Source: a virus
Length of the DNA: 25,347 nucleotides
IMG/VR virus record: IMGVR_UViG_3300001450_000179
Span: 3,640 to 28,986 of that record
Strand: one strand, 5' to 3'
The position numbers and the translations under genes were made by a program. The notes under the pieces were generated by a model. That model did not search any database. It saw nothing but the letters and a program-made list of their open reading frames with translations, and was not told the origin of the DNA. Within the stretch, counting starts at the first letter, position 1; every line of letters starts with the position of its first letter. Below are positions 1,223 through 25,174 of this stretch, one piece after another.

Positions 1223-1244
1223 TAAAAAAACGATACAGGTATGT

Positions 1245-8288: not shown

Positions 8289-8927
8289 CTTTTTACTTTT
8301 TAGATTAATATTTAATTTGTGTTTAATTTCTTTGTCTGTTATATTTTTAAACTTAGAAACATCATATTTGGCTGCCACTTTAATAGCATCCGAGATGGAA
8401 TCAATAAATCCTAGTTCAAGAGCTTCATCAGCATTTAACCAAGTTTCTTCATCCATCATTTCTTTTACCTTGTCATAAGGTAGGTTTGTTTTCTTTATAT
8501 ATATATCAGCAATCTCATTACTAATCTTTTCTAAAAGATTCGCTGTCTTTTTTAATTCTTTAGCCTCTCCCATTGCTCCACCCCAAGCGTTATGTATCAT
8601 AAATAGAGAGTTTTCAGCCATAACCACTTTATCAGCAGCTAATGCAATTACACTGCCCATACTAGCAGCAATGCCTTCAATGTAAACTGTAGTTTCCGCA
8701 GTTCTTTTCTTTAGGATATTATAAATAGCCATCCCCTCAAAAACATCTCCACCCACACAGTTAATGTGTAAGTTTAATGGGGAGTTTTTAAATCCTTTAA
8801 TTTCATCAATAAAATTTTGAGCATTTATTCCGAAAGTACCTATCTCGTCAAATATATAAACATCTACTACTTTGTTAGATGTCTTTGACTGTATATCATA
8901 CCAATTCTTATTCATAGCGGCAAACAT
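7920..8927 (-). CDS. ClpP-like prohead protease with C-terminal scaffold
   Basis: 335 residues. The N-terminal 185 form a ClpP/S14-type serine protease: INCVGGDVFEGMAIYN oxyanion loop at 55-70, nucleophile Ser89 in GIAASMGS, His112 in FMIHNAWG, and an acidic residue near Asp159 before TWLNADEALELGFID. From about 214 on there is a charged, coiled-coil-rich tail (ELEGAATKLN, LEGEKETLTEEVERL) as in capsid scaffolds. The fused layout fits a maturation protease that also helps prohead assembly. An internal ATG at 8288 could also give the scaffold alone. The start may be ATG 8927 or ATG 8915 (MNKNWYDIQ); the latter fits better with the promoter whose -7 box covers 8921-8928. Confidence 0.88.
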   Translation of the reverse strand: MFAAMNKNWYDIQSKTSNKVVDVYIFDEIGTFGINAQNFIDEIKGFKNSPLNLHINCVGGDVFEGMAIYNILKKRTAETTVYIEGIAASMGSVIALAADKVVMAENSLFMIHNAWGGAMGEAKELKKTANLLEKISNEIADIYIKKTNLPYDKVKEMMDEETWLNADEALELGFIDSISDAIKVAAKYDVSKFKNITDKEIKHKLNINLKSKKMTDELKNWFNGKIEDIITRVKSDTSNANEKEVSVTISDEAEILNKFSELEGAATKLNGSITDLEGEKETLTEEVERLTALLSKTNAKGTEISTDGDPAVVKTEVEEKDAAFWNGMIAKMNLK

Positions 8928-8964
8928 ATTTTAATGATATGACAATCTCACGCAGTTTTTGGAA
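8921..8964 (-). promoter_or_regulatory. Boxed promoter P2 for the protease/capsid block
   Basis: Minus strand: TTCCAAAAACT at 8964-8954, 25 bases, then TATGTTTG at 8928-8921 (perfect TAnnTTTG). The same box and exactly the same spacing occur at three other intergenic sites in this window. The box is also half of a short inverted repeat (AGTTTTT-TCC-AAAAACT). Initiation would fall close to 8916, at the ATG 8915. It follows the HTH gene at 8971-9291. Confidence 0.6.
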
Positions 8965-8970
8965 AAAACT

Positions 8971-9291
8971 TTAGTAAGTTATGTTTTCTGTAATATGTTG
9001 CTTCCTTCTTTCTTTATATACCACACTTTGAGCTTGCCTTTCTGAGATTTCATATTTAATAGATAAATCCATAAACGTATGGGTTCTGTTACCCTCATTA
9101 AATCTAAGCATACAATCAAAATCATAGATTATCATATAGTTTCTTAAAATTTTTGGAGCTATTATTCCCTTCTCAATCAAATGCCTTATAGTATCTTTTG
9201 ACGTAGGCTCTCCAAACCTTAGAGTAACCTCAGTGTTTAATAATTCTAAATACTCCTCAACAATCTTTATGTCGTTTTGTTTTTTAGCCAT
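8971..9291 (-). CDS. Small helix-turn-helix protein, possible late activator
   Basis: 106 residues. The C-terminal part, about 67-97, reads as a helix-turn-helix: RTHTFMDLSIKYEISERQ followed by AQSVVYKERRK. The LS-KY-(I)SERQ-x-x-V-YKERR arrangement resembles the C-terminal HTH of Mor/Mu C-type and other small phage regulators. The N-terminal part is helical (IVEEYLELLN) and may dimerise. It could bind DNA as a transcription factor or, less likely, act in packaging. It is encoded immediately upstream of boxed promoter P2, which makes it a candidate for the activator of the TTCCAAAAACT promoters; no direct evidence for this exists. Confidence 0.55.
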   Translation of the reverse strand: MAKKQNDIKIVEEYLELLNTEVTLRFGEPTSKDTIRHLIEKGIIAPKILRNYMIIYDFDCMLRFNEGNRTHTFMDLSIKYEISERQAQSVVYKERRKQHITENITY

Positions 9292-9294
9292 GTA

Positions 9295-9663
9295 TTAGTT
9301 TCTTGCGCCTGTAGGAGAAAGAGCCCCTGTTATTGTTTTGTGCTTATTAACTTTCTTAGCTTTTTTCTTGACTACCTCAACAACATCAATAGTATCAACA
9401 GTTTCAACAGCTTTTAATCTTTCATTAGATATAATATCAGCAATATTATCAAAGAGCAACATAACAGCCTTTCTGCAACTCAGACAACCCTTGCTTTGTT
9501 TTTGTCTAGGGAATGATTCCTTCCATAAGTCAAAAAATGTATTTAATGCTCCTGTATGATATTTATCGGTATTCTGTATAGTTATTTTATTTAATTCCGA
9601 CAGACTAACTATCATGTCTTTTTGTTCCTCTGTGTAGTTTTTGATTATTGAATTGTAATCCAT
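9295..9663 (-). CDS. Unknown protein with a single CxxC motif
   Basis: 122 residues, not recognised. The N-terminal half is helical (IIKNYTEEQKDMIVSLSELNK, with NTFFDLWKESFP). A CLSCRKAVMLLFDNI segment at about 60-74 has one CxxC. The C-terminal 35 residues are basic and low complexity (VVKKKAKKVNKHK). One CxxC is too little for a zinc finger alone, though the neighbouring 66-residue gene product is Cys-rich and could be a partner. Spaced 3 bases from the HTH gene and 18 bases from the Zn-ribbon gene, so clearly co-transcribed with them. Confidence 0.55.
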   Translation of the reverse strand: MDYNSIIKNYTEEQKDMIVSLSELNKITIQNTDKYHTGALNTFFDLWKESFPRQKQSKGCLSCRKAVMLLFDNIADIISNERLKAVETVDTIDVVEVVKKKAKKVNKHKTITGALSPTGARN

Positions 9664-9681
9664 ATTATTGTTATTTAGTTA

Positions 9682-9882
9682 TTACTCTTTCCATTTGCCC
9701 AAAGGACATTCTCCAAAAAACTCTTTCGTGAGTGTTGTTTTTGCATCTAAGAAACAGCTACATTTACCGCACCTTGCTCCCTTTGTCCATTTAGGATATT
9801 TCAACATTAAGAAGTTTCTGTAAAAGTCGCACTTTTTACAGGTATCTACCCTATCTTTCTTTATTTTTTTACTAACAAACAT
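9682..9882 (-). CDS. Small Zn-ribbon protein (DUF6171-like)
   Basis: 66 residues with six Cys: C15-x-x-C18, C38-G-K-C41-S-C43 and C59-P-L-G-K-W. The order CxxC, CGxCxC, CPxGKW matches the small zinc-ribbon family DUF6171 found in many phages and prophages. It probably binds one zinc ion. The function is unknown; its steady position between tape measure and head genes suggests a virion-assembly or regulatory role. Nine bases separate it from the tape measure stop. Confidence 0.7.
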   Translation of the reverse strand: MFVSKKIKKDRVDTCKKCDFYRNFLMLKYPKWTKGARCGKCSCFLDAKTTLTKEFFGECPLGKWKE

Positions 9883-9891
9883 TTGTTTATA

Positions 9892-12800
9892 TTAAAAAGT
9901 TGCATTAGCCTGGATTATACTTACTGTTGATTGGCTGTCAGTTATATCAGCTTCCACTACTACTACCTTTCTTTGATTCTGCATAGCCCCCCTCATTTGA
10001 GATTGATTATTAGCGTCAAACTGAGCCTCAGAAAATTGAGGAGAACTCATTAATCCACCATCAGCAAACTTAACCCCACCACCTGCTGCGTTCATTTCAG
10101 ATAGTTGATTTCTAAACATTGCTGTACTTCTTTTATTTATAACAGCTTCTCCACCTTCTAATTCATTTACTCTACCACCTACTGCAAATTTAACACCACC
10201 CTGTGCGTGGCTAGGGCCATGAACCATTCCTCCATCAGCAAATTTATTTGCGCCATCAGAAATGATACCACCTTTCTCAAACATTTTCATGATTTTTGAC
10301 AATAGAGCTAGTGTAGCTATAACTGCAATAAGGTTAAGAGGAAAGGGTAGTTTGGTCTGCATTGCAGCTCCTAACCCTACTGCAGGAAGAATAGCTGCTG
10401 TATCTACAATTGCACCTGCACCTGTTGCTGCTGTATTTGCTACTGTAGCCTTTGTTCCAAGTAATGTAGCCAGAGTTAATTTCCCTTCAGTAACAACTGT
10501 TATTGCTTTCTGTAAATTTAAAAGAGACTCTGCTATTGCTGCTGCTTTAGTAATAGCTTCTCCTGCTTTTCTAATTCCATTTAATTTACTATTCTCTCCT
10601 GCAACTTCTTGTAACGCACTACCTAAATCCGAATAAGCCTTTACTCCTTTTTCTAATGCTTTTGCATCTGCCTTAATTCCCTTCTCAGTTTCTTTTCTGT
10701 TTTTCATCTTGAGGTCAATTATTTTTTGCTCAAGCTCTAAACGAACATCTGCCGCCATTATACTTATAGGTATAGCATCTAATTCTGCTTGTGCAGCATC
10801 TATTTGCACATCTCTTAAAATTCTTTCAGCCTCCTCCAAATCTCTAGTGCCTGCCAAAACTTGCTTCATTAACTCTACTCTTAGGTAATCAGCATCTGTA
10901 TTTTCTTCTTTTGCTTTTTTTGCTTTTTTGTCAGTTTCAATATCATCCTCTGTAGCTTTTTTCTTTTTCTTTATCTCTGTAGTAACTGCTTTTATAGATT
11001 TAGCATTTAAATTATTTATATCATCACTACTATAACCCAAATCATTTAACATTTTCAATAATTCTGACTCCTCTTTTTTAAGCTGATTATCTTTTCGGAT
11101 TGTTGTAAGACTTTTTTGTTTTAAAACTTCTATTTTTTGAGTTAATGCAAATTGGTCAGAGTTTAATAAATTAACTTTTCCTGTAACAGTTACTTGCTCC
11201 TCCGCTTGTTCGTTTAAAAATTTCTGAGTATTACTTGTTTGTTTTAAATTTACTTCCCTTTGCTGTTCAGTAGTTGTTAGTTCATCTAATAAATTTTGGT
11301 TTTGCTGAATAATACTATTGTTTTCTCCCAAAGCCTTATTATTCCCATCTAATTCTTTTTTTAATTTATTTAACTGATTTACTAGTTTTACAGCTTCTCC
11401 ATCTGCTAATAAAGCGTGTCTAGCAATAGCCAAGTCCAAAGCCTTAGCATTTAAAACCAAAGCTCCTGTTTCTTCATCTATAACTTTAATAGAGTCCCCT
11501 ATATTATCCTCTAGTTCTTTTGTTACAATACCAAATCTTATTTTCTCCTCTTTTGTTTTTTCAGTAATACTATCAAGCCTTGCATATTCATTAATTAAAT
11601 CTTCCGTTGCTTTTCGCTCTTTTTGAAAACTTTTTGCTGTTGCTACTATTTTTTCATTTAAACTATCAAATCCTTCAATTAGTAATGTTACATTATTAAC
11701 GAAAGTGGCAACACCCTCAACCATATCCTTAAAAGGCCCTGCAATCAATGAAAAAAGAACAATAGAAATTCCCTGTATAGCTGATTTGAATTTCAACCAA
11801 GCTCCCTGAAGTGTATCTCCAACAATCAAAGCCATTCTCTCTCCTTCTCCATTTGCATTTAACAACGCATCCCTTAATTTAAGAGTAGCATCAGTTGTGC
11901 TTAGCATTTGCTCAAACGCACCTGCCTGTCTTAAATCTACAACCTCCATAACATCTGCCATACTTCCTCCTTCTTTGACAAATTGCTTCATGGCAGGGAC
12001 TAACTCATCCAAAGAGTGTATTGTTCCTCCAAAAGATTTTGAAAGGTCAGATGTAGGGTCTTGCATTTTAAGTAATATATTCCTTAAAGATGTACCTGCA
12101 ATAGAAGCTTCAATCCCTGAGTCAGCTAATTTAGACATTATAGCCGCAGTATCTTCAATAGAGAATCCTGATGATTTTGCAATAGGAGCAACCTTTGTCA
12201 TGGAAGTTTGCCACTTTTCAATATCCATAGCAGAACTTGCAAACGAAACAGCCATTACATCTACTACTCTTTGTGTTTCATTAGCTTCTAAACCAAAACC
12301 TCGTACTGCTGCTCCTGCTACCTGAGCTGCTCTTGCTAAATCCGTCCCTGTAGAGGTTGCTAAATCTAGTGTAGCTTTTTGTGCGTCTTGAATTTCTGCA
12401 GCAGTAAATCCTAACTTAGAGAAAGCTAATTGTAATTCTCCTACCTGTGTAGCTGTAAAGAATGATGTTCTACCTAGTTCTTGTGCTGATTCTGATAATT
12501 GTTTAAACTCATTATCTGTTGCTCCTGAAACAGCATTTACTTTAGCCATTACAAACTCAAACTCACTAAATGTACTTATAACAGAGCTAATAACTTTACT
12601 TACCATTCTAAAAGCACCTACTATAATACCAATAGCTGCAGCCCCTTTAATAAACTGCTTTGCCATTCCATTAGATGACTTTGTAGCAGCTTTAGTTGCT
12701 TTAGTAGAACCGCTTAAATCTTTGTTTAAATCTCTTAAGTTTTTAGATTTTGTTTTAATAGCTTTAGCAGAATCAGTATATCCCTTTGCAGCTTTAGCGG

Positions 12801-12933
12801 TAACTTTCTCTCCATCAGCTACTCTCTTTTGGTAATCCCTCTGTTCCTTTCGTAATTCTTTTAATTCTTTCTTTAAATCAGCAACTTTTTTAATGTTTTT
12901 GATTTCTACCTCTATTGCTACTTTACTTGCCAT
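9892..12933 (-). CDS. Tail tape measure protein
   Basis: 1013 residues. Order of parts: N-terminal charged coiled coil (1-75); hydrophobic segment about 97-120; the TP901/PhageMin_Tail core at about 125-330, with FSKLGFTAAEIQDAQ, GTDLARAAQVAGAAVRGFGL and MSKLADSGIEASIAG; a second hydrophobic stretch near 390; long coiled coils to about 790; an Ala-rich hydrophobic region; and a C-terminus with repeated FADGG/FAVGG units and GGEAVINKRST. It sets tail length and is injected with the DNA. At about 1.5 angstrom per residue the tail would be near 150 nm. Usually the chaperone pair lies directly upstream; here five other genes intervene. Confidence 0.92.
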   Translation of the reverse strand: MASKVAIEVEIKNIKKVADLKKELKELRKEQRDYQKRVADGEKVTAKAAKGYTDSAKAIKTKSKNLRDLNKDLSGSTKATKAATKSSNGMAKQFIKGAAAIGIIVGAFRMVSKVISSVISTFSEFEFVMAKVNAVSGATDNEFKQLSESAQELGRTSFFTATQVGELQLAFSKLGFTAAEIQDAQKATLDLATSTGTDLARAAQVAGAAVRGFGLEANETQRVVDVMAVSFASSAMDIEKWQTSMTKVAPIAKSSGFSIEDTAAIMSKLADSGIEASIAGTSLRNILLKMQDPTSDLSKSFGGTIHSLDELVPAMKQFVKEGGSMADVMEVVDLRQAGAFEQMLSTTDATLKLRDALLNANGEGERMALIVGDTLQGAWLKFKSAIQGISIVLFSLIAGPFKDMVEGVATFVNNVTLLIEGFDSLNEKIVATAKSFQKERKATEDLINEYARLDSITEKTKEEKIRFGIVTKELEDNIGDSIKVIDEETGALVLNAKALDLAIARHALLADGEAVKLVNQLNKLKKELDGNNKALGENNSIIQQNQNLLDELTTTEQQREVNLKQTSNTQKFLNEQAEEQVTVTGKVNLLNSDQFALTQKIEVLKQKSLTTIRKDNQLKKEESELLKMLNDLGYSSDDINNLNAKSIKAVTTEIKKKKKATEDDIETDKKAKKAKEENTDADYLRVELMKQVLAGTRDLEEAERILRDVQIDAAQAELDAIPISIMAADVRLELEQKIIDLKMKNRKETEKGIKADAKALEKGVKAYSDLGSALQEVAGENSKLNGIRKAGEAITKAAAIAESLLNLQKAITVVTEGKLTLATLLGTKATVANTAATGAGAIVDTAAILPAVGLGAAMQTKLPFPLNLIAVIATLALLSKIMKMFEKGGIISDGANKFADGGMVHGPSHAQGGVKFAVGGRVNELEGGEAVINKRSTAMFRNQLSEMNAAGGGVKFADGGLMSSPQFSEAQFDANNQSQMRGAMQNQRKVVVVEADITDSQSTVSIIQANATF

Positions 12934-12944
12934 ATGTCTTTATT

Positions 12945-13469
12945 TTAACCTATTGTTAGTTTAATTTCTTTCTTTACTAATTCTTTATTTACAATATCCT
13001 CAACATCTTTCACTATTGCATCTTCTATCCTTTTAACTCCTCCATTTTTCCTCCAACTTTCTCTTGCAAAATCTATAAAGAAATATCTTCTTGGTGCAAC
13101 CTTTTTTCCTCCTGGAGTATAATACCCATCTTCCAATTCGTGCTTAACATGACTTATAAAATTATTCCTTTCATGCTCACTTCCAAATGTTAATTCGCCA
13201 TTAACCTCTTTGTGAAAAGTCCAATCTGCTATAGCTTGATAACTAGCATTAACACCACTTGACTTCCCATCATTAACAGTCCACATATAAGGAGTGTCAT
13301 TCAGGATTAGAAGTGAAATTGAATCTGTCCTGTTTCTTATATTATAATAAAATCCATTATATAGAGTTCCCTTACCTATATGTTTCTGATAGTTAAGCTC
13401 TTTTTTTAATGCCTCAATAATAGGCAGGTTTTCTCTAGCTAACGCTTCTTTTATTTTTAATAAATCCAT
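12945..13469 (-). CDS. HK97 gp10-like tail completion/connector protein
   Basis: 174 residues. An N-terminal helix (LLKIKEALARENLPIIEALKK) is followed by a beta region (GFYYNIRNRT, LLILNDTPYMWTVNDGKSSG) and a segment with ASYQAIADWTFHKE, then a PRRYFFIDFARESW strand and a C-terminal helix. This order (W-v-n-G, I-x-W, F-x-x-FA) resembles HK97 gp10-type proteins that join head and tail or end the tail tube. It overlaps neither neighbour and is encoded 11 bases upstream of the tape measure. The similarity is distant, so an unrelated small tail protein is possible. Confidence 0.5.
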   Translation of the reverse strand: MDLLKIKEALARENLPIIEALKKELNYQKHIGKGTLYNGFYYNIRNRTDSISLLILNDTPYMWTVNDGKSSGVNASYQAIADWTFHKEVNGELTFGSEHERNNFISHVKHELEDGYYTPGGKKVAPRRYFFIDFARESWRKNGGVKRIEDAIVKDVEDIVNKELVKKEIKLTIG

Positions 13470-13471
13470 CT

Positions 13472-14206
13472 TTATGCAGGGTCACCTTTATCTCTCGGTA
13501 TGAAAGAATTATACTTACGCCTTAAAACTTTAGCTAAACCTGAGCCTGTTAAATCAGTAACTACAGGTAGCTGATAATAGTCTTTTGCTTGCACGTTAAT
13601 TGAAGATATGTAAACAGTATCTCCATCTACAGCAGAAGAAAAACTTAGAAACAAAATTTCTGTTGTGCTGTAAGCTGCAAAATCTAAGATTAACCGCTTT
13701 GCAGGTAATGTGTATTCCATTACATTAGACTGAACTAAAGCTGATGGTAAATAAATAGATGTAGCCTCATTATAAACCCTAGAAATCCCTAAAGTTCCAA
13801 CCCCTGTAATTCCTTTATTATGTATATTTACCGTTACAGTATACTCCCTTCCTTTTACTAATTGATTTAATTCTTGAAATATACCTGAAACACTAACATC
13901 TGCCACATTTTTTGTTGATGTAATTTCTATAGCATTGTCTACTGATACTGGACTAGCAACCAATCGGTGGGTTGTGCCATCCGAGCTATACCTAAACCAA
14001 TCTGAATTACCGTAAATAGGCAGGCTCGCTGCAGTAACTGCTTCTGTTGCGTAATCTGCTGATGAAGTAGATATAAGTGTCGTTGATAATGTCGTAGATA
14101 TAAAAGAGTCATTACAAGTCAAATATTCCTCACTTAAAAAAGGGATAGACACGAATACATCTAAACCCTCCTCTAACGCCTGCCCTCTACTATTTATTTG
14201 TTCCAT
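13472..14206 (-). CDS. Tail-associated protein with carbohydrate-binding-like domain
   Basis: 244 residues. After an N-terminal segment (MEQINSRGQALEEGLDVFVS) the central part, about 85-205, has the beta-sandwich pattern of carbohydrate-binding modules: ASPVSVDNAIEI, LVKGREYTVTVNIHNKG, RLILDFAAYST, SAVDGDTVYISSINVQAKD. A related module is inserted near the N-terminus of the next upstream protein (14229-17291). The C-terminus GSGLAKVLRRKYNSFIP resembles endings of small Bacteroidetes phage tail proteins. It is probably part of the tail tip and may bind host glycans; both are inference. Its stop is directly followed by the gp10-like gene. Confidence 0.55.
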   Translation of the reverse strand: MEQINSRGQALEEGLDVFVSIPFLSEEYLTCNDSFISTTLSTTLISTSSADYATEAVTAASLPIYGNSDWFRYSSDGTTHRLVASPVSVDNAIEITSTKNVADVSVSGIFQELNQLVKGREYTVTVNIHNKGITGVGTLGISRVYNEATSIYLPSALVQSNVMEYTLPAKRLILDFAAYSTTEILFLSFSSAVDGDTVYISSINVQAKDYYQLPVVTDLTGSGLAKVLRRKYNSFIPRDKGDPA

Positions 14207-14228
14207 TTTAATTATTATTTATTAGCTA

Positions 14229-17200
14229 TCAAAAACTTACATCTACCGCAAAACTTCCTAAATCTTCCCACAAGACAAGCTCTACTTTTGTAACTTCATT
14301 ATTGTTTGGCTTATAGTCTATAATTCTATTTATATAATAGTAATACCCATCAATATACACTAACTTCCGCAAGTCTAAATCATTTATATCTATTAGCTTT
14401 AAATTAACATAAACTATTTTAATTCTAGGATTTCTTTTAAGTTGTTCTATCATGTTTTGATAGTAAGTCTGATACAAACCTTTATATCCCACTTCGGGCC
14501 CAGTTATTCTAGTTGTAGTATCATAACTAGCCTGATTTGCACTACCATACGATAAAGGGAGTGTAGGAGCATTAAAATCAGTATATTTATCTACACTACA
14601 AGCCCTTGCAATTATTGGAGGCCCGCCCATTGAAGAGTACCCTGCAATAATAGTTTCCAAATCAGATTGCCCCCAGACTTGAATCCTTGTGCCAAAGCGT
14701 ATGCCAAAAGGAATAACAGTAAGCGGTGTTGCCATCTTTATGTAATGCACTAATCTAGGTAAAAAATTATATCCCTTCGGTGGTCTGCAGGAGCTACTTG
14801 GGGTAGGCACTGCATCTGTATCGCATAACCCCCAAAGATTTGCCCTTGCAGGTACAGCATTTGCCCAAGCAACCCCTTGATACGCCTCTCCATCTTGCGA
14901 GCTGTAGGTGCCTGCAAAAAAAGGATTCTCAAAAACAGCTTGACCTACCTCAAAATCACTATCTAAAAATTCTCTATATGGATATTCATCTAATATACCA
15001 TTAAAAAAAGTTCTTCCGTTATGCTCTACTACTTTGTCATTGGAATCAGTCTTATATTTAAAAATAACTTCCCTTTTTAATTGAGATTGAATCCATTTAT
15101 CCTCTTGACTCCTAGATAAATCTACCTTATTAGTCCAATCTTCAGATTCATTTTGATTCTTAAAGAAATCATTATATGGCTCTATAGTAACAACCCTTAA
15201 AGTAGTATCTGTAGTGAATCGTAGATTAAATGCGTGAATAACTCCCTGTAGAAAATCCAACTGTGTGCTTTCTCCATCTATAATGTTTTTCACATCAAAT
15301 GTTTGTCCATACTCTACTCTTTCTCCTCTATGAGTAATATTTACCCGTCCATCACACGCTGAAACTCTGGTACCAGGAGGAACAAGGGGAACAGGTTCAA
15401 CATTTGCACCTCCGTAAAGATACATATCTACACCCATAGTCCTATTGCCTGCATCTGAATGTTTAAGCCTAGTTTCAGTTTGAAATCTAATCTTATCAGT
15501 CTTATTTAACCACTGATTCTCTATAAGCATATTTTCAAAACTAATAGTGGCAGGAGTAATTCCACCACCACAAGTAATGATACGGCTAGTATTGACATCC
15601 ATTGCATAACTTGTAGCTATAGTAGTCCAAAAACCTGTTCCTGCAGTAGAAACTTGACAGTTAATTCTTACATATCGTAAAAGGTATGAAAAAGCAGTCC
15701 CTCCACACACATCCTGTAACCAAGCCGAAATATTATCCATAGATATGTCATAAAAACCATATTCCTGTATCTCAAACTCTCCAGTAGCATCAGTATACAT
15801 TGATGAAGGGTCAGTAGTAAGGAAATTACCTGTTCCTGCCCAACTCCCACCTGCAGGTTTAGTACCATCCCATCTTATTATTTCTCTCTCCCACCAATTT
15901 TGAGTAGAGGGAATAGAAGGAGTAGTGTAAGAATAATCCCCCACATATCCTGTTTCCGCAGCCCCTTCTTCAAAAGAGCCGTAAGCACTATTGGCTGCAA
16001 CTCTTTCGTCAACATTATTATATCTAAAATTAGGCAAAAGCATTATAAGCCCCTTAAACATATCGCTATGAATAAAGTTAGACGAGATAGTGTAACCTTC
16101 TTGATGGAACAACTGTTTTATAATATCATAAATAAATATTCCAGGTCTAAAATCTACACAAGGTACAGGGGTAGGGTAAGCATAACCAGTAAACCCAAAA
16201 CCATAATAACCTTTGGAATTAAACCCCTGAAGCGGGTCGTGTTCGTAAGCGGTTTTAAGTAATTGCATACCTGTAGCTCCACCTGGATTAAGCTCTCCAT
16301 ATCCTGCTTGTGGGTAACATATAGGACTTGTATTTACACTAGGAACTCCTGCGAAAGTTGTTTTTGTCGTAGCGTCATCTATATCCCATAGAGCTACTAC
16401 CTCTCCATAATTAAGTTTTTTGTCTATACCTGAAGTAGCTCCCTTTCTATTGAGATTATCCCACCCACTCCCATCAACTCCATTGAGAACGCTTAAATTC
16501 TTTAATAATTTATTTCCTATTCCTGCAGCCCAATCAACATTATTTCCATAAAAAACGCAAGAATAGTATAAGGGCTGTGTAGATTGTCCTAGACCAGTAA
16601 CTTGTAACAGTCCTACTATAGTAAGGGAACCGTCTACAGTTATCCTACAAGGCTTTTGATTAGTTACTGTATTGTTTTTAACATAATAACCCTCATTATA
16701 AATTCCTTTTAGGACTTTATTATTATGCTTTGTTGCAGGTATTTTAAAAGTCTTACTATATGTACCTGTTCTAGCTTCCAAATCTCTAGCCTCCCCTACT
16801 GAAAAGCTTAATGCAAGAGGAAAATCATCAGAATTTCCTACCTCTAAGTTTCCTGCAACGCTTTCATCCCAATTTATACCCCCTACTTGAGTAATTCTTG
16901 CATATATCGTTCCTTTTGCATTTGTATCAGCAAATATTCTAGCTCCTTGCGAACCTGATGCGGTAAATGTTTCTTCATATGTTCCATCTACAGCTCCTCT
17001 CATGCTTAAGGTTATTCCAATCGCAGAACCAGCCGACCCAACTGTATCAAACCCCATATCCCCTGCTCCTGTCTTATTTGATAGCACTAAGGTTAGTTTA
17101 TAATCTACTCCATCAGTTAGAGTTCCTGTTACAGGATAAATATATGCTGAACCTGTAGTAAGAGTAGTAATTTCCGCCTTTGTAGTGTCTACAACATTCC

Positions 17201-17291
17201 AATCTGCTGTAGCGACAGTAGCGAGATTGAAGTTAATTTGATTATTAGAAACATCATCATACTTATAGTCTAGTAACTCTAGTGCAATCAT
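14229..17291 (-). CDS. Large distal tail protein (hub or baseplate-like)
   Basis: 1020 residues. At about 163-200 is the segment FSVGEARDLEARTGTYSKTF followed by PATKHNNK, a motif typical of large tail proteins of Bacteroidetes phages. Residues about 20-140 form an extra beta-rich module (GVDYKLTLVLSNKTGAG, GTIYARI) resembling the domain in the protein at 13472-14206, apparently inserted before that motif. The middle contains Gly/Tyr-rich beta sequence; the C-terminus (IDINDLDLRKLVYIDGYYYY, then INRI) looks like a hub or receptor-contacting domain. It is encoded in a string of tail genes, overlapping none. The exact role (tail hub, tip or adhesin carrier) is not determined. Confidence 0.65.
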   Translation of the reverse strand: MIALELLDYKYDDVSNNQINFNLATVATADWNVVDTTKAEITTLTTGSAYIYPVTGTLTDGVDYKLTLVLSNKTGAGDMGFDTVGSAGSAIGITLSMRGAVDGTYEETFTASGSQGARIFADTNAKGTIYARITQVGGINWDESVAGNLEVGNSDDFPLALSFSVGEARDLEARTGTYSKTFKIPATKHNNKVLKGIYNEGYYVKNNTVTNQKPCRITVDGSLTIVGLLQVTGLGQSTQPLYYSCVFYGNNVDWAAGIGNKLLKNLSVLNGVDGSGWDNLNRKGATSGIDKKLNYGEVVALWDIDDATTKTTFAGVPSVNTSPICYPQAGYGELNPGGATGMQLLKTAYEHDPLQGFNSKGYYGFGFTGYAYPTPVPCVDFRPGIFIYDIIKQLFHQEGYTISSNFIHSDMFKGLIMLLPNFRYNNVDERVAANSAYGSFEEGAAETGYVGDYSYTTPSIPSTQNWWEREIIRWDGTKPAGGSWAGTGNFLTTDPSSMYTDATGEFEIQEYGFYDISMDNISAWLQDVCGGTAFSYLLRYVRINCQVSTAGTGFWTTIATSYAMDVNTSRIITCGGGITPATISFENMLIENQWLNKTDKIRFQTETRLKHSDAGNRTMGVDMYLYGGANVEPVPLVPPGTRVSACDGRVNITHRGERVEYGQTFDVKNIIDGESTQLDFLQGVIHAFNLRFTTDTTLRVVTIEPYNDFFKNQNESEDWTNKVDLSRSQEDKWIQSQLKREVIFKYKTDSNDKVVEHNGRTFFNGILDEYPYREFLDSDFEVGQAVFENPFFAGTYSSQDGEAYQGVAWANAVPARANLWGLCDTDAVPTPSSSCRPPKGYNFLPRLVHYIKMATPLTVIPFGIRFGTRIQVWGQSDLETIIAGYSSMGGPPIIARACSVDKYTDFNAPTLPLSYGSANQASYDTTTRITGPEVGYKGLYQTYYQNMIEQLKRNPRIKIVYVNLKLIDINDLDLRKLVYIDGYYYYINRIIDYKPNNNEVTKVELVLWEDLGSFAVDVSF

Positions 17292-17293
17292 TT

Positions 17294-19156: not shown

Positions 19157-19159
19157 ATG

Positions 19160-20368
19160 TTAATATATTCTATATTTTTTATTTAAATAATCTTCTACTT
19201 CTTGCCTTTTATTGTCAGTCAATGCAGTATTATAAACAATTACCTCTGCTACACTCCCCTTAAATCCACTTGTAGACACAGAAGGATAACCCCCTACAAA
19301 AAACTCTCCTGCAATAAATTTTCCTGTAGCATCAAACCCTACTGTAGTAACAGGAGTCCCTGCCACATTATTAGCATAAATAGTCATTGTATCTCCATCT
19401 AGTTTGTAAGTCATTATCGCCTCGTTAGCAGCCAAAAACTGGTTAGCTGTAATACTATTAGTGCCATCTGAAACTATTGCCTGATACTCTCCAATATTTT
19501 TTTGTCCCAACTTTATAAAACCTGCTCCTGCTCCTGCAGGTTCAAGTCCCAAAACACTTTCTTGTGTTGAGCTAACATTTACATCATAAGCAGCAACAAT
19601 AAATACTGTAAAATCGCCTGTTGAAAAAGGCATTAAAGTAATATCATCAGAACCAAGATAATGAGGGGTTGATGATGGATAATAACTAATTCTTGTTTTG
19701 CCATTTAATTCTCCCGTATTGTCTGTTTCACTACCTGAATAAGTATATCTTTTAGGTTGTAGAGATTTAGTAGTCTGAGAAACATTATTGTTGTTCCCTG
19801 ATTTATCTCCCCACGCCTCAACTTTTTTAGTAGGGATGCTAAATGTAACATTACTATCAGCACTTAACCATATTTTCAGACCCTCTATTTGATTTGGATA
19901 ATTAGAAACAGGAGTGAAGCACTTGCTAAACACTTTCCAATTAAAACTCATTTTTATTTGAAGTAATTGGTCATTAGCCACCTCTTTATTTCTTTCAATA
20001 GATAAACTACCATCTGTTAAGTATGATATAGTGGTTTGTCCTGCCTGAATACCTATATAGGATTTCAAGAACATATCTAGCCATTCGTTAGCTAAATCTT
20101 GTAGATTATCCCATCTCTGTTCAATACTTTCATTAGCTTGGGCTGTTCTATTGTATAAGTCTGAAAAATAAACCTCAAAAGCATATTCTTCCCATCCATT
20201 TCTTGGGGTTACTTCAGGATATATAGAGTTAGGGGGCGTTATAAGTAAGGATGGGTACTGAGTGTTGTGATTATCGTTAAATTCATCAGTATATCCAAAG
20301 AACTTATCCCCATAAGTCCATTTATCTTTCATTGTTGCTACTACATCTGTTAGTCTTATTATGGGCAT
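19160..20368 (-). CDS. Tail-completion-like protein fused to a LamG-like lectin domain
   Basis: 402 residues in two parts. Residues 1-155 (MPIIRLTDVVATMKDKW, YPSLLITPPNS, EEYAFEVYFSDLYNRT) look like a small tail terminator or completion protein. Residues from about 162 on form a concanavalin/LamG-like jelly roll: IEGLKIWLSADSNV, WGDKSGNNNNVSQ, FTVFIVAAYDV, and the ending GFKGSVAEVIVYNTALTDNK, then RQEVEDYLNKKYRIY. That ending is typical of LamG-type domains in Bacteroidetes proteins. The fusion would place a sugar-binding domain on the tail. ATG overlaps the stop of the frameshift extension (TAATG), so the two are coupled. Confidence 0.68.
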   Translation of the reverse strand: MPIIRLTDVVATMKDKWTYGDKFFGYTDEFNDNHNTQYPSLLITPPNSIYPEVTPRNGWEEYAFEVYFSDLYNRTAQANESIEQRWDNLQDLANEWLDMFLKSYIGIQAGQTTISYLTDGSLSIERNKEVANDQLLQIKMSFNWKVFSKCFTPVSNYPNQIEGLKIWLSADSNVTFSIPTKKVEAWGDKSGNNNNVSQTTKSLQPKRYTYSGSETDNTGELNGKTRISYYPSSTPHYLGSDDITLMPFSTGDFTVFIVAAYDVNVSSTQESVLGLEPAGAGAGFIKLGQKNIGEYQAIVSDGTNSITANQFLAANEAIMTYKLDGDTMTIYANNVAGTPVTTVGFDATGKFIAGEFFVGGYPSVSTSGFKGSVAEVIVYNTALTDNKRQEVEDYLNKKYRIY

Positions 20369-20691
20369 TACATTATTTTATTTGGGTTATGTATTTTTTC
20401 TTGCACTTTATTTTCATAAGTATTTTTTGCGGTTATCCAACTCAGATATGTTAAAACATGATAAAGGTTTGTTTCCTTTACGCTATCTATCCTATTTTTA
20501 CCATCTATATTAAATACAGCTTTCTCAGCTAGCATATACAAACTATTAAGCCATCCAAAGGGAGCTATATAGGTTTTATATAATCCTACTGTGTTCACGC
20601 TTCCTGTACTTGTTGTTGTTTCTCCAAATACATAAGGGAAAGTTTCGTTAATTTTTCGCTTTGATGAGTCAAAAAAAAACTGAACTCCCAA
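20368..20691 (-). CDS. Frameshifted C-terminal part of the tail assembly chaperone
   Basis: Open frame in the -1 phase relative to the chaperone gene, overlapping it by 97 bases. Its only upstream start is a TTG within the overlap with no leader, so it is probably made by -1 slippage at the T-run (plus-strand 20671-20679) as a fusion of about 312 residues. The part beyond the slip starts DSSKRKINET and ends with a helical segment (YHVLTYLSWITAKNTYENKV). The role would match lambda gpT: the extension recruits tube subunits while the shared N-terminus holds the tape measure. An internal ATG (MLAEKAVFN) is a less likely alternative start. Confidence 0.7.
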   Translation of the reverse strand: MGVQFFFDSSKRKINETFPYVFGETTTSTGSVNTVGLYKTYIAPFGWLNSLYMLAEKAVFNIDGKNRIDSVKETNLYHVLTYLSWITAKNTYENKVQEKIHNPNKIM

Positions 20692-21305
20692 ATGACATCC
20701 ATTGTAAGTTCTCTAAATTTATCTGCTTTTTCAGGTATGGCATCTTCGTCATACTTCTCATCTGACCTCCTGCACAATATAGCCATCTGCTCAGGGAGAA
20801 CATCATATCTTCCATTCTCCATATCCGAAATATACATTTCTAATTGAGTTGATTCTATGAAATCGCCATAAGTTTCTTTTCTGAAAAACTCAGAAGGGAA
20901 GTAATATGTTTCTCCATTGAAATCAAATGACTTTACTCCTTTAGGTTTATATTCCTGAGTTAATTTATTTATACATTCAATTACCTGTGTTATTTTATCT
21001 ACACTAACTTCATTAACCTCATCTTTTGTTAATCCTGTAATGTAAGAGAATATATCTTTATTCATACTCAATATCTGAGAATTATTTAACTCTACCTTGT
21101 CAGTTAAATCAGAGATATATTGAGCTTTGATTAGTTCGTGAGATTTCTCTTTCTCACTCTTTCCGCTATCAACAGCATCCTTATAGTGCTTCTTTATTAT
21201 TGTAGATAGTTCTCCCCAATACTTAACAGATATATCTTCCCATTCTATTGGAATAACCACATCTCTGTCTATATTGTTGCCTTTCATGTTAATCGTTATG
21301 CTCAT
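20595..21305 (-). CDS. Tail assembly chaperone (frame-0 product)
   Basis: 236 residues, helical. It has IPIEWEDISVKYWGELSTII near residues 18-37, an ISDLTDK... and SYITGLTKDEVNEVSVDKI block, a FDFNGETYYFPSEFF strand pair, and QMAILCRRSDEKYDEDAIPE before the C-terminal helix. This matches tail assembly chaperones of Bacteroidetes phages, the functional analogue of lambda gpG, which coat the tape measure before tube assembly. Near its 3' end the T-run (slip site T TTT TTG at minus 20676-20670) permits -1 frameshifting into the next frame. Unusually, the tape measure gene is not next to it but about 7.6 kb downstream. Confidence 0.72.
   Translation of the reverse strand: MSITINMKGNNIDRDVVIPIEWEDISVKYWGELSTIIKKHYKDAVDSGKSEKEKSHELIKAQYISDLTDKVELNNSQILSMNKDIFSYITGLTKDEVNEVSVDKITQVIECINKLTQEYKPKGVKSFDFNGETYYFPSEFFRKETYGDFIESTQLEMYISDMENGRYDVLPEQMAILCRRSDEKYDEDAIPEKADKFRELTMDVIWEFSFFLTHQSEKLTKLSLMYLEKQQQVQEA
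20670..20679 (-). promoter_or_regulatory. -1 ribosomal frameshift site
   Basis: Minus strand has nine T followed by G. In the chaperone frame it reads AGT TTT TTT TTG, so both T TTT TTT and T TTT TTG are X XXY YYZ heptamers. Slipping back one base leads into the 100-codon extension. GGGAG lies about 5 bases upstream of the T-run and could act as an internal Shine-Dalgarno-like stimulator. No clear downstream hairpin is seen. Confidence 0.72.
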
Positions 21306-21717
21306 TTTTTTTATTTAGGTTAGTTAGTATTTTTTTCTGCATTAATTCTTTTTCATGAATATCATCTAGTATATCTGTTGTTTCTCCTATGAAATCTACT
21401 GTCATTTCAAATAGCTCCTCGCTTAGTTCATCAATAATCTCCTTATTAGATTTGTCTTTAATGCCTGATAAAAACCCCATTGTAGCATACAGCATTAGAT
21501 TTGGAGTCATATACGCCCATTCAGACCTTCTGTTTGATGATTTAACAATTTTATTAAATGCGTTTGTATATTTTATAATATTATTTAGAATTTCATTAAA
21601 ATCTGAAAACTTGCTACTAGGATGTTCTTCTGTTGCCGTAAACACAGTGCCCTGTATAAAAATTACATATTTATGTAAAATTTCTTCGTGTTTTTTATTT
21701 AGACTGCTTAGTTCCAT
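21289..21717 (-). CDS. Unknown helical protein upstream of the tail chaperone
   Basis: 142 residues from ATG 21717 (MELSSLNKKHEEIL); not recognised. Almost entirely predicted helical: EEILHKYVIFIQGTVF, FNEILNNIIKYTNAFNKIV, EIIDELSEELFEMTVDF. No signal peptide or membrane segment. The start is chosen because promoter P3 (21739-21782) would begin transcription near 21732, after the alternative TTG at 21741. Its end overlaps the chaperone start by 17 bases, suggesting coupled translation and perhaps a joint tail-assembly role. Function unknown. Confidence 0.65.
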   Translation of the reverse strand: MELSSLNKKHEEILHKYVIFIQGTVFTATEEHPSSKFSDFNEILNNIIKYTNAFNKIVKSSNRRSEWAYMTPNLMLYATMGFLSGIKDKSNKEIIDELSEELFEMTVDFIGETTDILDDIHEKELMQKKILTNLNKKNEHND

Positions 21718-21738
21718 GTATTTTTTCTTGCTATTTCG

Positions 21739-21782
21739 CAATTATATGGTTTTTTTTTATATTACACTAGAAGTTTTTGGAA
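21739..21782 (-). promoter_or_regulatory. Boxed promoter P3 upstream of the tail genes
   Basis: Minus strand: TTCCAAAAACT at 21782-21772 (extended to TTCCAAAAACTTCT, as in P1), then 25 bases, then TATAATTG at 21746-21739 (one mismatch to TAnnTTTG). The spacer contains a run of nine A. It lies in the gap between the terminase large subunit and the next gene; initiation near 21732 leaves a leader of about 15 bases to ATG 21717. Confidence 0.55.
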
Positions 21783-21783
21783 A

Positions 21784-23241
21784 TCAGGCAAAATAAACTA
21801 CCTTACTTCCACTCCACATATTTTTAGTTATAGCCATTACCAAGCAATCCACCATATCATCATGCTTTGCAGATGGAAATTTCACAAGCTGCTGAACAAA
21901 TTCCTCATTCCATTTCCCATTTAACAAGCTTACCCTTCCTGACTCTAAAGAAGCACTAATATCTTGAACTCTAGCTATCTTATCTTTAGATGGCGGCTTA
22001 TCTTCTCTCACGTTAAGTCCTGTTTCTTTCTTTAGTGTCTGAACTATTGACTTTCCAGATGCTTTTGGCTCCACATAAATCCTACTTCTATTGCTATATC
22101 CATTTTTCTGCACCCATTGAGGAATAAATTTAACTAATTCAGGAAATTCTTTATATACATTCACGCAATCTATTATTTGCCATTTATTATCTTTAAATAT
22201 ATAAGCGAGTAATGCTGAGGGGTCATTCTTTTCGTTAGAAGTGTATGCAGGGTCTATAACAAAATCCACAGTTACTTGCTCTCCAACATCTATCATTTTG
22301 AATTTATCTATTTTTAGCCACTCTGCTTTTATCATTCCAGAGTTTAAAGGGGTTGGTGTTTGCATGAGTTGTCCTGCGTAACCATAACTACCTAAAGCCT
22401 GCTTATAATCATCAAGAATTGTCCTACTAAACCTATCTGACCAGAAAAGCCCGTCTTTATCATAATTTTTTTCTAGTACTTTAGGTTTAACATCATCTGA
22501 CAGTTCCGCAGGTATACATATGTGTTGATATTTTAGTCTGCTCTGACCTCCATACAATAAAAATCCACTTAAATCGTTATCGTGTATTCTCTGCATTATA
22601 ATTATTCTAATTCCTGTTAATGGATTGTTCAATCTGGAATAAAATGTTGTTCTATACCACTCGTTAGCATTTTCTCTTTCTATCTCTGATGCTGCGTGCT
22701 GAGGTGACACAGGGTCATCTACCAATAAGAAATCTCCACCCTGTCCTGTAACTGTTCCCCCAACTGATGTTGCTCTCCTCACTCCAAGAAAATTATTTTC
22801 GTATCTTGATTTTAGATTTTGGTCTTTTTTAATATGGAATAAATCCCCCCATCTCACTTTAAACCACTCTGAGTTTATTATATCTCTACTTCTTGTTGAG
22901 TGCTCTATTGAAAGTTCTGCAGAGTAAGATGCTGTGATAAATCTAAACTTAGGATTCTTTATCCAAGCCCAAACTGGAAACATAACAGTAACTAGAAGTG
23001 ATTTTGTAGAACGAAAAGGAATATTAATTACTATATCCTTCGTTTTTGGTTTATTTGCTATTATTCTCTCCGCTTCTTCTTGTAGAATATCGCATAGATA
23101 TTTATGATGCCAATTAGTAGACAGCTCAATAGAGGGTTCAACAATATGCCAAGCCTGTTGGAAAAATTCATAAAAAGATAATTCGCATAACTTCTTTTTT
23201 AATGCAAATTTAAGTGCTGCATCAGTTGTTTTCAATGTCAT
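21784..23241 (-). CDS. Terminase large subunit
   Basis: 485 residues from ATG 23241. The ATPase half shows a Walker A-like loop at 75-81 (PFRSTKS) with upstream DIVINI strand, and Walker B with acidic pair at about 170-176 (DFLLVDD). The nuclease half has an Asp in DFVIDPAYTSNEKNDPSALL, a Glu in RIYVEPKASGKS, and a C-terminal KHDDMVDCLVMAI Asp pair, as in RNase H-like terminase nucleases (Terminase_6C type). It cuts concatemers and drives DNA into proheads through the portal. The start overlaps the small subunit stop by 20 bases. ATG is preferred to the TTG one codon upstream. The gene is complete with all motifs. Confidence 0.93.
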   Translation of the reverse strand: MTLKTTDAALKFALKKKLCELSFYEFFQQAWHIVEPSIELSTNWHHKYLCDILQEEAERIIANKPKTKDIVINIPFRSTKSLLVTVMFPVWAWIKNPKFRFITASYSAELSIEHSTRSRDIINSEWFKVRWGDLFHIKKDQNLKSRYENNFLGVRRATSVGGTVTGQGGDFLLVDDPVSPQHAASEIERENANEWYRTTFYSRLNNPLTGIRIIIMQRIHDNDLSGFLLYGGQSRLKYQHICIPAELSDDVKPKVLEKNYDKDGLFWSDRFSRTILDDYKQALGSYGYAGQLMQTPTPLNSGMIKAEWLKIDKFKMIDVGEQVTVDFVIDPAYTSNEKNDPSALLAYIFKDNKWQIIDCVNVYKEFPELVKFIPQWVQKNGYSNRSRIYVEPKASGKSIVQTLKKETGLNVREDKPPSKDKIARVQDISASLESGRVSLLNGKWNEEFVQQLVKFPSAKHDDMVDCLVMAITKNMWSGSKVVYFA

Positions 23242-23626
23242 CAAGTTTTGCTCTTAGCTCCTCAATGCTTACATCATCATTTAACTCAATTTTGATTTTT
23301 TTTGTTGTATTATCGTTTATTTCAGAAGATGTTAGTTTTGGAACTGTATAGTTAAGTAGTTTTGATACTGCATTTATATATGCTTCAGGGTTTTGGTCAA
23401 ATAATTTATCTAATGCCATTCTTATTTTAGTTGAATGTCCTTCTAATGCCCAAGTCAAAGCATTTCTGCTAATTTTTGTGGTCACAACATTATTTTTCTC
23501 TCCTGCCTTTCTTCCATCTGTATTTATCTTACCTCCATTTGGAAAGAACTTTTCAGAAGTTTCTTTATATGGGTTTAGTTTATTGATATTACTTTCTCTT
23601 AGTTTATATCTTTTATCTTCTTCCAT
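23222..23626 (-). CDS. Terminase small subunit-like protein
   Basis: 134 residues. The N-terminal part is polar (NKLNPYKETSEKFFPNGGK), followed by GRKAGEKNNVVTTKISRNAL, a helical core (EGHSTKIRMALDKLFDQNPE) and YINAVSKLLNYTVPKLTSSE, then an acidic tail (SIEELRAKLDDIENN). The GRK-G-xN start followed by paired helices and LLxYxxPKL is typical of small terminase-like DNA-recognition proteins next to TerL in Bacteroidetes phages. It would recognise the packaging site and load the large subunit. The overlap with TerL supports the pairing. Confidence 0.75.
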   Translation of the reverse strand: MEEDKRYKLRESNINKLNPYKETSEKFFPNGGKINTDGRKAGEKNNVVTTKISRNALTWALEGHSTKIRMALDKLFDQNPEAYINAVSKLLNYTVPKLTSSEINDNTTKKIKIELNDDVSIEELRAKLDDIENN

Positions 23627-23632
23627 ATTTTT

Positions 23633-24409
23633 TTATAATTTTTTTATAGCATTAGTTATTTTGTCAATATACACATCAAGTTCATCATCTAACATAGCCT
23701 TTGTTAGTTTAGCATATTCTTTATCTAACACCACTTCATCTTCTTCTTTATCTATCATTTCTATCAGTTTTCCTGCTGCTTCAAAAACATCATCATATCC
23801 AAACTGACCTGCTCTTTGTCTTATTGCTGACAATGCGCTTCTATATATTTTACCTTCCTTCCCAAAAGGAAATTTATATCTATCTTTAGTTTCTTCACTA
23901 GCATCTTCATTTTCAAGTAAGAACCATTTAGCATAATTTTCCCAATCATCTCCATCTTCTCCAAGTAAAGCATTTCCATCTTCAGAGCTAAAACTCCAAT
24001 CAGAGTCCCTATCTACATTATCACTTTCAACTAGAGATGCTGCATTATCATATCCTTTGCTGTTTAATCTTGATTTAGCATAAATTTCTTCTTCCTCCTC
24101 TTTTTCTTCCTCTATATCCTCCTCTAGTTCTTTTTCTTCTTCTTCTTTTTCGTAAGTAAATAAAAGAGTCATTGGCTTCTCATCATCTCTATCTACCTCA
24201 ACTAAAAGCTCTCCTTCTCTGTGTAGCTCCTCCATTTGCTCTTTAGTAAAGTTATAAGTCCAGTCTACAGGTTCGTCTGCTTGAGGCTTTAAAGCTTCTT
24301 CAAGGTGTTCCCCTTGATTTGCTAATTGACAATCTTCTAGGGTTTCGTATAGACATTCGCCTGTTTCTCCCCATTTATATAATCCTTCTTCACATTCTTC
24401 GCAAGGCAT
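23633..24409 (-). CDS. Zn-ribbon and Glu-rich protein with prohead-protease-associated-type domain
   Basis: 258 residues in three parts. Residues 2-28 have four Cys (PCEECEEG, GECLYETLEDC), a likely zinc-binding knuckle. Residues about 86-112 are a nearly pure Glu/Lys stretch (EKEEEEKELEEDIEEEKEEE). From about 115 the sequence DWSFSSEDGNALLG, WENYAKWFLLEN, YKFPFGKEGKIYRSALSAIR and GQFGYDDVFEAAGKLIEMI resembles the C-terminal helical domain often found attached to phage prohead protease or DUF2213-like proteins. Here it stands alone, 6 bases upstream of the small terminase gene. A head-assembly or packaging role is likely; the enzymatic part is absent. Confidence 0.55.
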   Translation of the reverse strand: MPCEECEEGLYKWGETGECLYETLEDCQLANQGEHLEEALKPQADEPVDWTYNFTKEQMEELHREGELLVEVDRDDEKPMTLLFTYEKEEEEKELEEDIEEEKEEEEEIYAKSRLNSKGYDNAASLVESDNVDRDSDWSFSSEDGNALLGEDGDDWENYAKWFLLENEDASEETKDRYKFPFGKEGKIYRSALSAIRQRAGQFGYDDVFEAAGKLIEMIDKEEDEVVLDKEYAKLTKAMLDDELDVYIDKITNAIKKL

Positions 24410-24445
24410 AATTTCTATTTTTTAATTTTTTTAATTTTTTTTATT

Positions 24446-24841
24446 TTATGATTGGTTACAATCCCTATATAGCATTAGCGTTCCACTATTTATTTCAATC
24501 TTAGTAAAGTTAGCCATAATCTCAGAATTTGTTTTAAGTATAAATCCTGATGTGCCAAAAATCAATGCACTAAAGTGGTCAGCAGATATATTGGTTGCTA
24601 CTAATTCTCTGAACTTAGTGTTCTCTAGTGCTACAATTTTATATACAGTTGAATAATCTGTGCATCCTGTTATTGGAGGTTGTAGTCCTGGCGCATCATA
24701 CTCCCATGATTTAATTTCTTCACCCGTATCACTAAGTATTATAGTTTGACATCCACACTTTCCATGTCCCTCATACGCCAAATCTGCAGAGTATATAGTT
24801 GCACCATTATTGCTAATTACTTTGGGTGGGTGGTAAGACAT
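24446..24841 (-). CDS. Unknown small protein, first gene of the late operon
   Basis: 131 residues from ATG 24841 (MSYHPPKVISNNG); a GTG five codons upstream is in frame but overlaps the expected start of transcription from P4. The sequence is beta-rich (ATIYSADLAY, CQTIILSDTGEEI, LMLYRDCNQ) with four Cys (KCGC, GCTDY, DCNQ). The second half, YKIVALENTKFRELVATNIS followed by FTKIEINSGTLMLYR, repeats a strand-turn pattern seen in small virion proteins. It is not recognised. As first gene after promoter P4 it may be a head decoration or fibre protein, but this is a guess. Confidence 0.6.
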   Translation of the reverse strand: MSYHPPKVISNNGATIYSADLAYEGHGKCGCQTIILSDTGEEIKSWEYDAPGLQPPITGCTDYSTVYKIVALENTKFRELVATNISADHFSALIFGTSGFILKTNSEIMANFTKIEINSGTLMLYRDCNQS

Positions 24842-24855
24842 AATTTTCTTTTTCA

Positions 24856-24899
24856 CAAATAAAGGAATTTATTTTAAATATCCTAAGCAACTTTTAGAA
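24856..24899 (-). promoter_or_regulatory. Boxed promoter P4 at the head of the late operon
   Basis: Minus strand: TTCTAAAAGTT at 24899-24889 (8 of 11 matches to TTCCAAAAACT), 25 bases, then TTTATTTG at 24863-24856 (one mismatch to TAnnTTTG). Box sequence is weaker than in P1-P3 but the spacing is identical. Initiation near 24851 gives a 10-base leader to ATG 24841. It would drive the terminase and tail genes. Confidence 0.45.
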
Positions 24900-24957
24900 A
24901 TTTTATTAACCTCTCTTTCTTCATATCTTTATCTTTATCTTGTTCTTTATCTTTAAT

Positions 24958-24970
24958 GGTATGTAATACC
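24958..24970. repeat. GGTAT-GTA-ATACC palindrome, right copy
   Basis: Perfect 5-bp inverted repeat with three-base centre. The preceding TTTAATGGTAT matches the left-end element at 63-72 and is likewise preceded by CTTTATC units. It is the smaller of the two copies because the outer arm differs (ATACCCTT here, ATACCATT on the left). Confidence 0.5.
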
Positions 24971-24994
24971 CTTATTATACCCTTTAGATACCCT
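24966..24994. repeat. Three ATACCCT repeats with exact 11-bp period
   Basis: ATACCCT starts at 24966, 24977 and 24988. The first unit is also the right arm of the palindrome at 24958-24970, so the array seems to extend from it. Equal helical phasing suggests cooperative protein binding. It lies between divergent promoters P4 and P1. Confidence 0.6.
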
Positions 24995-25130
24995 ATGTTT
25001 ATTTTCATCTAAATGTAGCTATTTTCACTTCCCTTCCATTATAACTAAACTCCATTTCACTTCCTTTCCACTAAACTCCATTATTTTCCATATATATCAC
25101 TTTTCAAATTTTTTTATAATTTTTTTTCAC

Positions 25131-25174
25131 TTCCAAAAACTTCTGAATATTCCATTTTATTTACTATACCTTTG
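25131..25174 (+). promoter_or_regulatory. Boxed rightward promoter P1
   Basis: Plus strand: TTCCAAAAACT at 25131-25141 (extended TTCT), 25 bases, then TACCTTTG at 25167-25174, a perfect TAnnTTTG. Initiation near 25179 would leave a leader of about 70 bases before ATG 25248; the leader contains a GTTGC/GCAAC hairpin at 25193-25209. It faces away from the late operon and would drive genes beyond the right edge. Confidence 0.55.

Follow-up and report, generated by a model that had tools for sequence, protein, structure and literature searches.

In bacteriophage Mu, a dimer of the activator Mor contacts two 5-base-pair (bp) inverted repeats within a 16-bp element centred at -43.5 (PMC4390567). 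The RinA/Ltr late activators of phages of Gram-positive bacteria are small proteins encoded directly upstream of the promoter that they serve, with the packaging and structural genes behind it (PMC13123087). In Flavobacterium johnsoniae, the -7 element of the promoter occupies positions -12 to -5, transcription starts 4-5 nucleotides (nt) further on, and the -33 motif is weak (PMC6847099). Here we describe four sites in a viral DNA stretch of 25,347 nt (the window; bases 3640-28986 of the 28,986-base virus record IMGVR_UViG_3300001450_000179) at which a phage-specific box stands at a fixed distance upstream of a -7 element of the Bacteroidetes type. Our analysis, which draws on sequence comparison, suggests with a probability of roughly 0.78 that these sites form a class of late promoters that are used by the host RNA polymerase and depend on a phage activator protein bound to the box.

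The window encodes terL, a terS-like gene, a portal protein, a head protease and tail genes, nearly all of them on the minus strand. The four sites (A to D; Table 1) have the common layout that an initial annotation of the window had described, and its coordinates and letters could be verified throughout. The distance from box start to -7 start is 36 nt at all four sites, and two of the three perfect boxes do share extra bases, namely TCT after the box at A and C (GCG at B). The -7 motif TAnnTTTG, which had been assigned to every site, is strict at B and C only; A and D each differ from it at a single base, and the relatives share both of these departures. The claim that each site lies just upstream of a gene likewise stands for A, B and D, the last of which precedes the gene block leading to terS and terL. 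It fails for C, which faces away from all large genes, the late genes included, and toward a conserved stem-loop and a 22-codon open reading frame (ORF).

A search with TerL recovered 80 related loci of 73-97% identity, and the best TerL relative among cultured phages has 43% identity (Croceibacter phage P2559Y). Eighteen long relatives (31-39 kb) were read, giving 19 genomes with the window; clade 1 consists of the window and ten of these relatives. In the AT-rich window, the box alone is not enriched when two mismatches are allowed (24 occurrences vs 17.5 expected), and exact boxes number 3 where 0.033 are expected. When the box is combined with an in-register -7 element, 3 sites are observed with 0-1 mismatch, and 300 dinucleotide-shuffled versions of the window contained none; with as many as 3 mismatches allowed there are 4 sites against a shuffle mean of 0.36 (maximum 3). 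The 1.16 Mb of related loci contain 46 copies of the exact 11-mer, nearly all of them at orthologous places, compared with a mean of 1.9 for permuted 11-mers. Across the 11 clade 1 genomes, a -7 element follows a box at gap 22 (up to 2 mismatches) in 26 cases, all of them non-coding, and in 0 of 13 coding boxes; any gap other than 22 gives at most 6 cases, and permuted boxes at gap 22 average 0.065. The initial annotation had proposed such a search of relatives with controls, and had held that the class should be given up if the pattern were as frequent inside coding regions. The in-register sites prove to be non-coding, group-specific and far above the permuted-box controls. We also scanned the strict pattern TTCCAAAAACTKCK-N22-TANNNTTG across 2.9 million IMG/VR contigs and obtained 76 distinct sites among the loci retrieved. 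By their neighbourhood 74 of these are A, B or C, and one further site, at a contig end, was assigned to C by eye, so that 75 of 76 fall at three orthologous positions; the remaining one lies elsewhere and resembles a chance match.

Bacteroidetes sigma-ABfr promoters carry a -33 TTTG about 19 nt upstream of the -7 element, and this motif is lacking at the box sites. Of the 76 box sites, 2 have a TTTG at a gap of 17-21; of the 67 non-box -7 sites before genes in the same phages, 35 have one, mostly at gap 19 (Fisher p 2e-12, which is only indicative because the sequences are related). The -7 element of the host sigma factor is kept at all sites. With positions counted as in F. johnsoniae, the 14-nt box spans about -48 to -35. 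The AGTTT-N7-AAACT dyad of site B covers -54 to -38, which puts its centre at about -46. Class II activators, Mu Mor among them, bind in the region taken up here by the box (PMC4390567). These positions support the earlier proposal that the box, then put at about -47 to -37, takes the place of the -33 element as an activator site would, and it does stand where the non-box sites often have TTTG. As a separate observation, early promoters of the relatives (for example, G003:C1:27975 and G003:C1:30403) have TTTGG...TATCTTTG in common, with TTTG at gap 19-20, and such early-gene sites may constitute a second, host-like promoter class.

The box is not constant between clades. Clade 2, with about 75% TerL identity, has a different box, about TTGTNNNAAANTRTGNAA, located 38-39 nt before the -7 element, and its pattern matches at 18 places in 7 genomes, none of them within coding sequence and none away from A, B and C. 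Boxes at different sites have an identity of 0.73 when they come from the same clade and 0.50 when they come from different clades; for the spacers, which serve as control, the corresponding values are 0.44 and 0.49, and 0 of 500 label shuffles matched the observed difference. In clade 3 (L056/G011 and allies) the boxes at A, B and C are mosaics, half clade 1-like and half clade 2-like. The comparison involves few clade-level events, and its alignment was anchored at the -7 element with a tolerance of one base; the concerted change is thus a strong pattern but a modest count. One automatic assignment of site C (in G017) took the wrong -7 element; it was retained and can only weaken the concerted signal. 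Because the boxes at A, B and C changed together and the spacers did not, a single protein would be expected to read them, and one sequence-reading factor probably serves all the sites.

The sites are also conserved individually. In clade 1 the gap-22 layout is found directly after terL (A), just before the head protease gene (B) and, on the opposite strand, before a conserved hairpin (C). Behind terL, 39 of 46 clade 1 loci retain at least 11 of the 14 box letters. At site B, the -7 element is present in 111 of 111 distinct loci and both dyad half-sites match at 4 or more of 5 positions in 103 of them, while site C and the hairpin downstream of it are kept in all clades. Site D keeps its register in 24 distinct sequences of clade 1, counting the window, with a consensus of about TTC[TC]NAA[AG]TTTC[GT]; no clear site D was seen in clade 2. 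The spacing at site B has a further consequence. Exactly 5 nt lie between the -7 element and the head protease ATG in 104 of 111 distinct loci (window 8921-8913), and with the F. johnsoniae spacing this places the beginning of the protease mRNA at or within one base of the start codon, so that this mRNA is predicted to be leaderless. Independently of this, a terminator-like hairpin with a T-run ends the late block (window about 1215-1300, minus strand), and past it TATATTTG precedes an exonuclease gene (family 20) by 4 nt, another leaderless layout.

As to the protein that would bind the box, we consider the most likely activator, with somewhat better than even confidence, to be the 106-amino-acid (aa) protein with a carboxy-terminal helix-turn-helix (HTH) that is encoded directly upstream of site B. 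The protein occurs in 19 of 19 genomes and in about 400 IMG/VR stretches; site B follows its gene in 111 of 111 distinct loci, and in the window the gene abuts the dyad. Its AlphaFold2 model is helical with a C-terminal HTH (mean pLDDT 84.5). Weak matches to PHROG 836 (late transcriptional activator) are obtained for 18 of 19 family members, the best with an E value of 0.002; Mu Mor and C match the same PHROG at about 1e-10. Structure comparison gave VIA Z 5.2-5.9, and the best viral structure match, A0A1B1IQL3 (E 9.5e-4, TM 0.80), is without a name in the tables. A PDB sequence search returned chance matches only, 50,697 phage records gave no match, and a short-pattern scan derived from the HTH alignment detected no relatives of the gene in 84,980 bacterial genomes. 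Homology to Mor and C could not be established: hhalign and the structure searches, Foldseek included, were not significant, and a deeper alignment of 55 members brought no improvement of the model. Between clades, the HTH differs in a few residues (ERQAQ[ST] vs ES[QM]AQN), and the box differs beside a common AAACT/AAATT core; this clade-level correlation is only suggestive.

The same promoter class could be served by another phage DNA-binding protein, for instance the Cro/C1-type family 16 (80-112 aa) of the early operon. Family 16 is present in 19 of 19 genomes with a Pfam Cro/C1-type HTH, and a late activator would most naturally be encoded among the early genes. However, its HTH is almost wholly different between clades (IKGSTIEKYLD vs VNYATSKKFIE) even though the AAAACT core of the box is kept, whereas the HTH of the 106-aa protein changes little and in step with the partial change of the box. 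In addition, the family 16 gene adjoins no box. We regard this alternative as unlikely.

It is improbable that the box is read by the host, through a regulator or an alternative sigma factor, and not by a phage protein. Phage promoters can use host activators and the -7 element is host-like, but the strict pattern is confined to the phage group (75 of 76 sites in IMG/VR), and from one phage clade to another the box changes at all sites together. The -7 element is, moreover, of the primary sigma factor type and not that of an extracytoplasmic function (ECF) sigma factor. Similarly improbable is a repressor operator that silences the late promoters early in infection. While a dyad beside a promoter can be an operator and the candidate protein is an HTH protein, the dyad is found upstream (about -54 to -38), with constant spacing and in the usual place of a class II activator, and the box stands in place of the -33 element. 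There is also no sign of lysogeny, since the short-pattern scan of 84,980 bacterial genomes detected no relative of the HTH gene. That the box is merely an A-tract or an UP element touching the alpha subunit, as its AAAAA core and its location upstream of -35 might suggest, is very improbable, and we rejected it on account of conserved non-A letters (TTCC, CTTC or CTKCG), which in clade 2 are jointly replaced by TTGT...TRTG. Chance, conceivable in an AT-rich genome, or a recent duplication of the sequence can be dismissed in view of the shuffles, the permuted boxes, the conservation across relatives and the likeness of the boxes while the spacers at the three sites are unrelated (0.44 identity).

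Several observations nevertheless weigh against an activator-dependent promoter class, or against the 106-aa protein as its activator. The -7 elements of sites A and D are non-consensus. In clade 1, sites A and C lack the left half of the dyad and show only the promoter-proximal half together with TTCC. The site A box has eroded in one sub-clade (7 of 46 loci), and in the relative L040 a natural deletion has removed the site A spacer and -7 element, with the box now fused to a TTGCG remnant. The absence of the -33 element by itself proves little because this element is weak in normal F. johnsoniae promoters (PMC6847099). With regard to the protein, the hhalign comparison of the 106-aa family with Mor and C gives a probability of 0.3% and covers the HTH only, and the Foldseek comparison of the model with Mu C and Mor gives E values above 1. 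The gene is itself part of the late block and no early promoter was detected ahead of it, which makes it necessary to assume a positive loop with some trigger. Finally, the phages encode other HTH proteins, namely the Cro/C1-type family 16, an HTH_39 protein and the ParB-like family 24.

On balance, we favour activator-dependent late transcription by the host polymerase. What the sequences show directly is the layout, its conservation and specificity, the lack of a -33 element and the concerted evolution of the box; promoter activity, activation as opposed to repression, the late timing and the identity of the protein are deduced from these. The -7 element would be recognised by the host RNA polymerase carrying the primary sigma factor of the Bacteroidetes. 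Recruitment of the polymerase would fall to a phage-encoded DNA-binding protein that occupies the box (about -48 to -35; dyad centre at site B near -46) and stands in for the -33 element, in the manner of Mor and C in phage Mu. Site D would then start the terS-terL block, site A the tail block, site B the head block with its leaderless protease mRNA, and site C a short conserved RNA. A fuller proposal, to which we attach about even odds, is that the activators form an undescribed family of small late activators, so far found only in uncultured marine Bacteroidetes phages, for which a 17-bp dyad replaces the -33 element of the divergent Bacteroidetes sigma factor. Packaging, tail and leaderless head promoters would be coordinated with a conserved structured RNA, and the DNA specificity of the activator would have changed between clades together with all its sites.

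Table 1. Sites, genes and RNA features of the window (positions refer to the window)
Feature	Position	Strand	Description
Site A, promoter-like element	21739..21782	-	directly 3' of terL stop; 11-nt box TTCCAAAAACT then TCT; 14-nt box TTCCAAAAACTTCT at 21782-21769; 22-nt spacer; -7 TATAATTG at 21746-21739
Site B	8921..8970	-	dyad AGTTT-N7-AAACT at 8970-8954 contains box at 8964-8951; box TTCCAAAAACT then GCG (8964-8921, -); -7 TATGTTTG at 8928-8921; 5 nt between -7 and head protease ATG (8915)
Site C	25131..25174	+	box TTCCAAAAACT then TCT, equal to 14-nt TTCCAAAAACTTCT at 25131-25144; 22-nt spacer; -7 TACCTTTG at 25167-25174
Site D	24856..24899	-	degenerate box TTCTAAAAGTT (8/11), equal to 14-nt TTCTAAAAGTTGCT at 24899-24886; 22-nt spacer; -7-like TTTATTTG at 24863-24856
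106-aa protein with C-terminal HTH, candidate activator	8971..9291	-	stop codon abuts site B dyad
Head maturation protease, first gene 3' of site B	7920..8915	-	PHROG 94/133; start taken from conserved ATG 5 nt past the -7
Terminase large subunit	21784..23244	-	PHROG 38, E 2e-94; upstream neighbour of site A, in block behind site D
142-aa protein without assigned function, first gene 3' of site A	21289..21717	-	family 2, in 19/19 genomes
131-aa protein without assigned function, first gene 3' of site D	24446..24841	-	from ORF and gene order; leads into terS-terL block
Conserved stem-loop GTTGC-TCATATC-GCAAC	25193..25209	+	presumed 5' part of site C transcript
22-codon ORF MFKFRIGKVTIQLLPPKITWNI	25248..25316	+	3' of stem-loop; read directly from sequence

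The stem-loop behind site C is itself well conserved. Its core, TTGCTCATATCGCAA (TTGC-TCATATC-GCAA), is present in 59 distinct variants, which were found via a search for the core itself, and these extend over all clades, with orthologues in L003-L100 and L122-L159. Compensatory change is seen in the stem pair GTTGC/GCAAC vs ATTGC/GCAAT, and the outer stem in clade 2 is AAACATC/GATGTTT vs AAACATT/AATGTTT. The stem-loop is a possible phage non-coding RNA; Rfam gave nothing at gathering score. The 22-codon ORF is conserved in clade 1 only and was not seen in clades 2 and 3. In addition, repeats are found 3' of the hairpin, GCAACTAACGATTTT in L129/L130 and TTATAAAATTGAACTT in clades 2 and 3, including L056.

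Gene timing in Bacteroidetes phages has been little explored, though such phages are common in the sea and in the gut. If our proposal is correct, it would provide a defined class of late promoters together with a testable candidate activator of about 100 residues, and a natural record of how an activator and its sites change together. It would also allow late genes to be predicted in several hundred uncultured phage contigs and might offer a tool for controlled expression in Bacteroidetes.

We found no description of the box or of late promoters in such phages in the open-access literature, but several known systems are organised along similar lines. In the MotA-dependent middle promoters of phage T4, an activator box takes the place of the -35 element and the host -10 element is kept, much as proposed for the sites described here; T4, however, also needs AsiA to remodel the sigma factor, no such gene was recognised here, and the box letters differ. 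Bacteroidetes primary sigma promoters (TTTG at -33, TAnnTTTG at -7) have the same -7 element, and the non-box sites of these phages often conform to TTTG-N19-TAnnTTTG, whereas the box sites carry the phage-specific box and no TTTG at -33. The RinA/Ltr systems resemble site B in having a small protein gene directly upstream of the promoter and packaging or structural genes behind it, although no sequence match to the candidate was found; they differ in that three to four dispersed promoters per genome are present here instead of one, each with a single box or dyad instead of several direct repeats. The Mu promoters of Mor (Pm) and C differ from the present sites in that the host sigma factor here reads TAnnTTTG and clade 1 has no left half-site at A and C, and homology of the candidate to Mor and C is not established. 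Shared with Mu would be an activator site in place of the -35 or -33 element, with the -10 or -7 element of the host sigma factor kept. The 17-bp element of site B, centred near -46, likewise holds two inverted repeats of 5 bp, and PHROG 836, which Mor and C match, is also matched faintly by the C-terminal HTH of the candidate.

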